From: an uncultured archaeon | GTDB taxonomy: Archaea; Halobacteriota; Methanosarcinia; Methanosarcinales; Methanoperedenaceae | Reading direction: 5' to 3' | Assembly: GCA_902386205.1 (NCBI GenBank) | Contig: CABMIH010000039.1 | Span: 1-50,201 of the forward strand | Length of the DNA: 50,201 nt | Shown here: positions 5,583 to 45,234 of the stretch, in pieces | Layout: every line of letters begins with the position of its first letter | Position numbering within the stretch: the stretch's first letter is position 1 | Made by a program: the position numbers and the translations under genes | Notes under the pieces: model-generated | Databases searched by the model: none | Told to the model about the DNA's origin: nothing | The model's input: the letters and a program-made list of their open reading frames with translations, nothing else

Positions 5583-5763
5583 AGTTTATGTATCCCCCGG
5601 GAAGGGATTTCTATTGAGATTTCTCTTGCATCTAACGTATTGATTAAGTATAAATATGTCGTAAATCGAGATAAAAATAACTGTATAACTATCAGTAGTT
5701 GGTGGTTACCAATTGATAGGGATCGCCATTTAAACTTAACTGTTTTTTGCACTTGCAGTGAAC

Positions 5764-5782
5764 TATTGTAATAGTTACAATA
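5764..5782. promoter_or_regulatory. Operator palindrome, copy 1
   Basis: Perfect 8-base arms TATTGTAA and TTACAATA around the spacer TAG. It lies about 80 bases before the small gene of the element, upstream of its TATA-like box. Confidence 0.6.
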
Positions 5783-5808
5783 CATGCAGGTAAAATTGTG
5801 TTAGAAAA

Positions 5809-5836
5809 TTTTATAATATTGTAACTTGTTACAATA
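5809..5836 (+). promoter_or_regulatory. TATA-like box overlapped by operator copy 2
   Basis: TTTTATAATA (5809-5818) is placed about 25 bases before the ATG at 5843, fitting a leaderless archaeal promoter. The palindrome with arms TATTGTAAC and GTTACAATA (5817-5836, spacer TT) starts inside the box and fills the gap to the start codon, a placement expected for repression. Confidence 0.6.
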
Positions 5837-5842
5837 GCAACT

Positions 5843-6115
5843 ATGGGAAGGGAGTTCGTTCGAGAAATCAAGGGCAACAAATACAAATATCTCGTGTATT
5901 GGGACAAAACGGAAAAGAAGCAAAAACAAAAGTACTTAGGAAGAGTTGATATTGAAAAATCAATGATTCTGAAGGTGCCTAATGAAAAAGAAGTTGCAGA
6001 GGCCATAATAAAGATTGGAGGAGGTTTAATAGAGCGGAAACAATTGGAAAAATGGATTAAAAGATTGAAGATTAAAGAGAATATGGATATGCTGAGAACT
6101 CTGTTTGTTGAATAA
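5843..6115 (+). CDS. Small basic protein carried by the 492-bp element
   Basis: A 90-residue, strongly basic protein. The N-terminal half (FVREIKGNKYKYLVYWD, then QKYLGRVD) resembles the beta-hairpin module that opens many IS4/IS1634-type transposases, where a KG-x-x-Y-Y-YLV strand is followed by K-YLG. The C-terminal half is helical and basic (KQLEKWIKRLKIKE). There is no DDE or HUH catalytic signature. I suggest a DNA-binding protein that recognises the palindromes around it and perhaps the TIRs, which share the GTTAC/GTAAC core. It may derive from a transposase N-terminus. Confidence 0.65.
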   Translation: MGREFVREIKGNKYKYLVYWDKTEKKQKQKYLGRVDIEKSMILKVPNEKEVAEAIIKIGGGLIERKQLEKWIKRLKIKENMDMLRTLFVE

Positions 6116-6125
6116 CGATTTTACC

Positions 6126-6145
6126 TATTGTAACTTGTTACAATA
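6126..6145. promoter_or_regulatory. Operator palindrome, copy 3
   Basis: Identical over 20 bases to copy 2 (arms TATTGTAAC and GTTACAATA, spacer TT). It lies 10 bases after the stop codon of the small gene, inside the right end of the element. Confidence 0.6.
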
Positions 6146-6254
6146 GTAATGAAAAAGTTACCAATGGTTTTGGGTAGGCGTTGGTAACCACCTAGTTCAC
6201 TCCAACGATAAAACGATGGTTAAATAAATAAAGAAACAGAAATAGTTTAAGTTC

Positions 6255-44967: not shown

Positions 44968-45015
44968 GATTTGCGGGAGCATCATCTCGATGGAAAAAAA
45001 TTAATCATATAAATT

Positions 45016-45227
45016 AATAACCCACATTCCGCACTTGGACTGAATAATTTAAATATTTTTCAGCATAGCGGTTTTTTATATATTCTGATATTAATCTTTT
45101 ATATGTAATCGCTAAAACGGCTTGATTTTAGCAATAATTAGAGAAGAATAATAACTGCTGCATATTAAAAATCAACATGGGGAAAAATCCTAATTAATCA
45201 AAGTTGATGTGCGGAATGTGGGTAATA
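45016..45227. mobile_element. 204-bp MITE-like element with 15-bp terminal inverted repeats
   Basis: ACCCACATTCCGCAC (45020-45034) and GTGCGGAATGTGGGT (45209-45223) are perfect inverted repeats. The tetramer AATA stands on both outer sides (45016-45019 and 45224-45227), a possible target duplication, though weak evidence in such AT-rich DNA. The interior is AT-rich and non-coding. It lies between the MNT promoter and broken gene copy 2. Confidence 0.55.
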
Positions 45228-45234
45228 ACTATAA

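Follow-up and report, generated by a model that had tools for sequence, protein, structure and literature searches.

We describe a 492-bp mobile element of an uncultured archaeon (Methanoperedenaceae) whose ends are shared with full-length ISs; it is flanked by 5-bp target duplications and carries a conserved gene, ORF90, in place of a transposase. Comparison with its relatives shows that the element belongs to the non-autonomous mobile insertion cassettes (MICs). ORF90 would most likely repress its own gene and act in trans on the parent ISs, a reading to which we assign a probability of about 0.5. The relatives of ORF90 belong to Candidatus Methanoperedens, which is also the genus of the genome analysed; these archaea are anaerobic methane oxidisers with genomes rich in ISs.

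Structure and mobility of the element

In the window (the whole stretch of 50,201 nucleotides of DNA that was analysed) the element spans positions 5701-6192, ends included, and sits between two divergently transcribed genes, glycosyltransferases by eye. Read directly, it is bounded by perfect 12-bp terminal inverted repeats (TIRs), GGTGGTTACCAA on the left (5701-5712, plus strand; also aligned with full-length ISs) and TTGGTAACCACC on the right (6181-6192, minus strand), and flanked by two copies of the target site duplication (TSD) TAGTT (5696-5700 and 6193-6197). The arrangement is unique in the window: no other pair of perfect 12-bp inverted repeats at most 1 kb apart has matching direct repeats of 5 bp at its flanks, and the same pattern appeared in 0 of 20 first-order Markov randomisations of the window. 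All this agrees with the original prediction of 12-base perfect inverted repeats, 5-base TAGTT direct repeats and one intact 90-codon gene; the 492 bases that it placed between the repeats are, however, the length of the element with the repeats, and only 468 bp lie inside them. The right end also contains a subterminal inverted repeat, GTTACCAA...TTGGTAAC (6157-6188, plus strand), which as RNA would form a hairpin of -14.2 kcal/mol.

Other Methanoperedens genomes contain, at unrelated sites, at least four further copies with the same ends (called type A here; 492-494 bp), and the 5-bp duplication differs from copy to copy: AAAAT (L011), AATAA (L013), ATTTG (L014) and TTTGT (L015), as compared to TAGTT in the window. 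Clean empty sites, with joined flanks and a single copy of the target, were found for the L015 copy (G009:C35) at G009:C177 (91%) and G005:C101 (93%). The mobility that had been predicted is thus confirmed by copies with the same ends in other flanks and by empty sites for one of them. In G008, the locus that corresponds by orthology to the window insertion is devoid of the element; as it is also shorter by 32 bp, it was rejected as a clean empty site for the window copy.

A full-length IS with the same 12-base ends had been proposed as the means to find the transposase, and three such ISs with perfect GGTGGTTACCAA ends were identified (L031, L033 and L072, with TSDs TATTT, ATTTT and ATAAC). 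They encode a DDE transposase of ~411 aa, and their left ends match the first ~85 bp of the element. Both share a TATA-like box, ATTTAAAC in the element (5728-5735, plus strand), which from the left-end alignment is a putative outer promoter. The transposase has a DDE_Tnp_1 domain; its nearest curated IS family is IS1182, whose cut-off of 270 bits it does not reach (34 bits), and it is left unclassified. In the window's own genome we saw only a truncated type A transposase (256 aa, G000:C43); since the assembly is 95% complete and broken at repeats, it may lack an intact helper. In L072 and further type A ISs there is also a strong RNA hairpin ~110-160 bp from the left end (-23.9 kcal/mol, z -6), directly preceding the TTG start of the transposase, which probably protects against outside transcription.

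ORF90 and its origin

ORF90 (5843-6115, plus strand) encodes a DNA-binding-type protein of 90 aa plus stop and is preceded by a predicted archaeal TATA box, TTTATAAT (5810-5817, plus strand), assigned from its spacing to the ATG. The reading frame is open in seven of nine full-length copies, with a protein identity to the window copy of 68-84%; L013 and L015 contain a stop codon, and several other copies are broken. Pairwise dN/dS values range from 0.05 to 0.40, with a ratio of means of ~0.17, and ORF90 is under purifying selection.

Searches of Pfam and NCBIfam assigned ORF90 to no family. Its weak single matches (E 1e-4 to 1e-2 among those readable) are N-termini of IS1634-type transposases and, twice, Fic-like proteins (by eye). 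Comparison by hhalign of a profile of eight transposase N-termini with the ORF90 profile gave a probability of 97.3% and E 2e-11 over residues 6-79, clearest over residues 6-45, and two Methanoperedens transposases are closest to ORF90, at 35-36% identity. In the IS1634-type transposases the module aligned to residues 6-45 is the beta-rich N-terminus; unlike them, ORF90 lacks a catalytic domain and has a different C-terminal half. The profile comparison therefore supports the earlier suggestion that ORF90 is the freed N-terminal module of an IS4/IS1634-type transposase, specifically of the IS1634 type. What did not hold was the notion of a parent element reduced by simple internal deletion: the module is absent from the parent transposases of both types (see below for type B), so that ORF90 was rejected as an internal-deletion product and the gene and the ends differ in origin.

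AlphaFold modelled ORF90 with a pLDDT of 58 from the single sequence and a mean of 66 with 15 sequences. The model consists of a three-stranded sheet of fair confidence (residues 1-30, at 80-88) followed by uncertain helices, and Foldseek returned no PDB match below E 1; given this weak model and the lack of a match, we claim no fold. A sequence search of the PDB gave prefoldin alone (E 0.99), rejected as a chance match. Separately, Fic-like proteins of related archaea (L173, L175) have the small N-terminal module of ORF90, which suggests that it may be a general nucleic-acid-binding module.

A second set of ends

ORF90 and its palindromes are also found between unrelated ends (type B), with the TIR CCCACATTCCGCAC and 6-bp duplications. 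There are five such copies (L010, L012, L016, L017 and L023), the best preserved being L016 and L023 (478 bp, TSDs TATTAC and CTATAT). The corresponding full IS, L148, is 1692 bp long with the TSD CTATAA, and encodes a transposase with a DUF4277 N-terminus that falls in the IS1634 family (E 4.5e-117; 392 bits against a curated cut-off of 100), to which duplications of 5-6 bp fit. No palindromes were found in this type B parent IS. Judging from these sequences, ORF90 and its palindromes are common to two non-autonomous families mobilised by different transposases. A single switch of ends is compatible with the tree, which is poorly resolved.

Gene-less 202-bp MITEs with type B ends occur as well. 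One lies in the window at 45021-45222 (45015-45228 with its TSDs), with the TIR CCCACATTCCGCAC and the TSD TAATAA; it has copies in G000:C53 and G007:C129, and its autonomous relative is the IS1634 element L148. The type B copy L016 (G007:C203, 1457-1934) separates a cas1-like gene from the coding sequence of cas2 (Pfam Cas2, E 1.4e-14), whose start it apparently severs.

Palindromes and the proposed regulation

Three palindromes of the form TTGTAAC-N1-2-GTTACAA, with at most one change each, surround ORF90. P1 (TTGTAATAGTTACAA, 5766-5780) has a counterpart in one parent-IS sublineage, where the palindrome occupies the corresponding position in the leader of the transposase gene. P2 (TTGTAACTTGTTACAA, 5819-5834) lies between the TATA box and the start codon of ORF90, a usual position for an archaeal repressor site, and is the predicted operator. 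P3 (TTGTAACTTGTTACAA, 6128-6143), identical to P2, lies 3′ of the stop codon. The exact N2 form, TTGTAACNNGTTACAA, occurs at 12 places in the 31 genomes of the genus, 11 of them in ORF90 elements, their remnants or derivatives and one (G022:C26) elsewhere. In several copies P2 is altered on both sides at once (TTGTAATAAATTACAA), as expected of a dimer site. ORF90 and the palindromes are linked by co-occurrence only; ORF90 is likely to bind them as a small dimeric protein.

In the leaders of the full-length ISs, P1 is present in G000, G008, G009, G017 and G021, weak in G030, and absent from G001, G002, G003, G004, G028 and the second G008 copy. It forms an extra segment of ~40 bp between otherwise aligned leader sequences, and in ISs without it the outer TATA-like box reads TTATAAAT. 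ORF90 or a remnant of it is found in five of six genomes with P1-bearing ISs and in one of five others, a difference that is not significant (Fisher p ~0.08, calculated by hand) and is confounded by kinship. The IS1634-type ISs in which the module occurs were searched for the palindromes and have none.

The original prediction offered two roles for ORF90, steering of a transposase or repression of the parent; both are plausible given operator-like palindromes that are also found in the parent leader. We prefer repression in view of the position of P2 in the promoter, of the one or two ORF90 copies in each carrier genome and of the presence of P1 in the transposase leader. ORF90 would be a stand-alone copy of the IS1634-type transposase N-terminal module whose dimer binds the palindromes and, at P2, represses its own gene. 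Less certainly, at P1 in the leaders of one sublineage of full ISs it may lower transposase expression in trans, and the cassette may then be a mobile regulator, in trans, of its own helper elements. The transposase would be provided in trans by the full IS for type A and by the IS1634 element for type B; since the type B parent is devoid of palindromes, trans-regulation of it would lack a target. Also to be set against this reading, the 202-bp MITEs and the 40-bp elements described below are without palindromes, which are thus not required for transposition.

The palindromes also mark the end points of deletions. In two gene-less 182-bp elements (L067, and L089 with its own duplication AATAT) the P2-to-P3 segment is missing, and in a 129-bp one (L071) the P1-to-P3 segment. 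As the deletions run from palindrome to palindrome, the palindromes serve as recombination points and the cassette is a source of MITEs. We also observed 40-bp near-palindromes (L004, 1497-1536, in G000:C57; L110, 1352-1391), which are built from the right end only, have both TIRs and show no clear duplication.

Alternative explanations

ORF90 could instead be a positive helper of transposition that binds the palindromes near the ends and pairs the ends or recruits the transposase, giving an edge in mobility over plain MITEs. Type A and type B copies alike have palindromes close to each end (P1 ~65 bp from the left, P3 ~50 bp from the right), the module derives from transposases, the half-site GTTAC recurs inside the type A TIR (GGTTACCAA), and the same gene comes with two kinds of ends. 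We nevertheless consider this role unlikely: P2 is in the promoter and not at an end, the type B TIR is without GTTAC, and the low copy number is not the expansion expected of a mobility booster. Moreover, plain end-only MITEs (202 bp, type B) moved too.

It is less probable that ORF90 is a domesticated host or plasmid regulator, a passenger serving the host with the elements as mere vehicles, although the strong purifying selection would suit such a role and MIC passenger genes are already known. The distribution of the gene argues against it. Strong relatives are confined to this genus (the search covered 238 genomes from the class and 393 from the phylum), with none in other genera at E<=1e-5 and none in viral contigs, plasmids or phages. 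In the 31 genus genomes no copy was seen outside these elements or their remnants, ORF90 is present in only ~9 of them, at differing sites, and exact operators are nearly confined to the elements. A broken type A ORF90 element in a contig labelled Bacteroidales (L166, JADGPT010000084.1) was rejected as a sign of spread to that group, because the genes of the contig look archaeal; the contig is probably misbinned.

We give somewhat less credit still to the palindromes being RNA hairpins, either attenuators or a shield against outside transcription, with an unrelated function for ORF90. P2 can fold as a 9-bp stem (-6.8 kcal/mol, z -2.1), and such hairpins are frequent in IS leaders; yet the stem is A+T-rich and weak, P2 is mostly upstream of the likely transcription start in a leaderless archaeal gene, and a two-fold symmetric site of 15-16 bp is typical of a dimer operator. 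That ORF90 is a dead fragment of a deleted transposase, as its shortness and the broken copies might suggest, is very improbable in view of a low dN/dS across strongly diverged copies, most of them open among those of full length, and of parent transposases that lack the module, so that it is no remnant of their deletion.

Discussion

As a repressor, ORF90 would resemble the known transposase-derived inhibitors of transposition, Tn5 Inh, IS1 InsA and P-element KP, in which the DNA-binding part of a transposase is expressed without the catalytic part. Those inhibitors, however, come from the transposase of their own element, whereas here an IS1634-type module lies between the ends of another IS.

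In its overall plan, the element resembles MIC231 of Bacillus cereus, a mobile insertion cassette as presented in the papers that cite its description (Chen et al. 1999, cited in PMC2266710 and PMC6542083): IS ends surround a gene other than a transposase, and a transposase acting in trans can mobilise the whole, a step that is predicted here. It has the ends of a full IS, 5-bp TSDs at five sites, and ORF90 alone, which has no transposase match in Pfam or NCBIfam. In contrast to MIC231, it is archaeal and very small, its cargo is a transposase-derived DNA-binding-type module with its own operator-like palindromes, and that cargo occurs between two unrelated sets of ends. Being short, non-autonomous and IS-derived, with TIRs and TSDs, it is also similar to MITEs (reviewed in PMC10969869), in which ORFs have previously been noted, and its gene-less relatives of 129-202 bp are ordinary MITEs. 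Unlike a MITE, which has no functional coding capacity, it carries a selected gene (dN/dS ~0.17) and gives rise to gene-less forms by recombination between palindromes; unlike an autonomous IS, it has no transposase of its own. Our literature searches found no description of such elements in Methanoperedens, which is not proof of absence, and to our knowledge a cassette with a freed transposase module, its own operator-like sites and two unrelated types of ends is undescribed.

It is possible, and we suggest it tentatively, that ORF90, as a freed DNA-binding domain of a transposase, forms with its palindromes a selfish regulatory module that moves between unrelated types of ends and is itself the unit under selection. 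Such a module would have placed its operator in the transposase leader of full ISs and would thus be a parasite in control of its own helper across IS families.

Non-autonomous elements are usually regarded as passive. Here, an element of less than 500 bp keeps a selected gene that resembles a transposon regulator, and the same gene is carried by two transposase systems. The system makes it possible to test directly if miniature elements can keep in check the transposases on which their movement depends.
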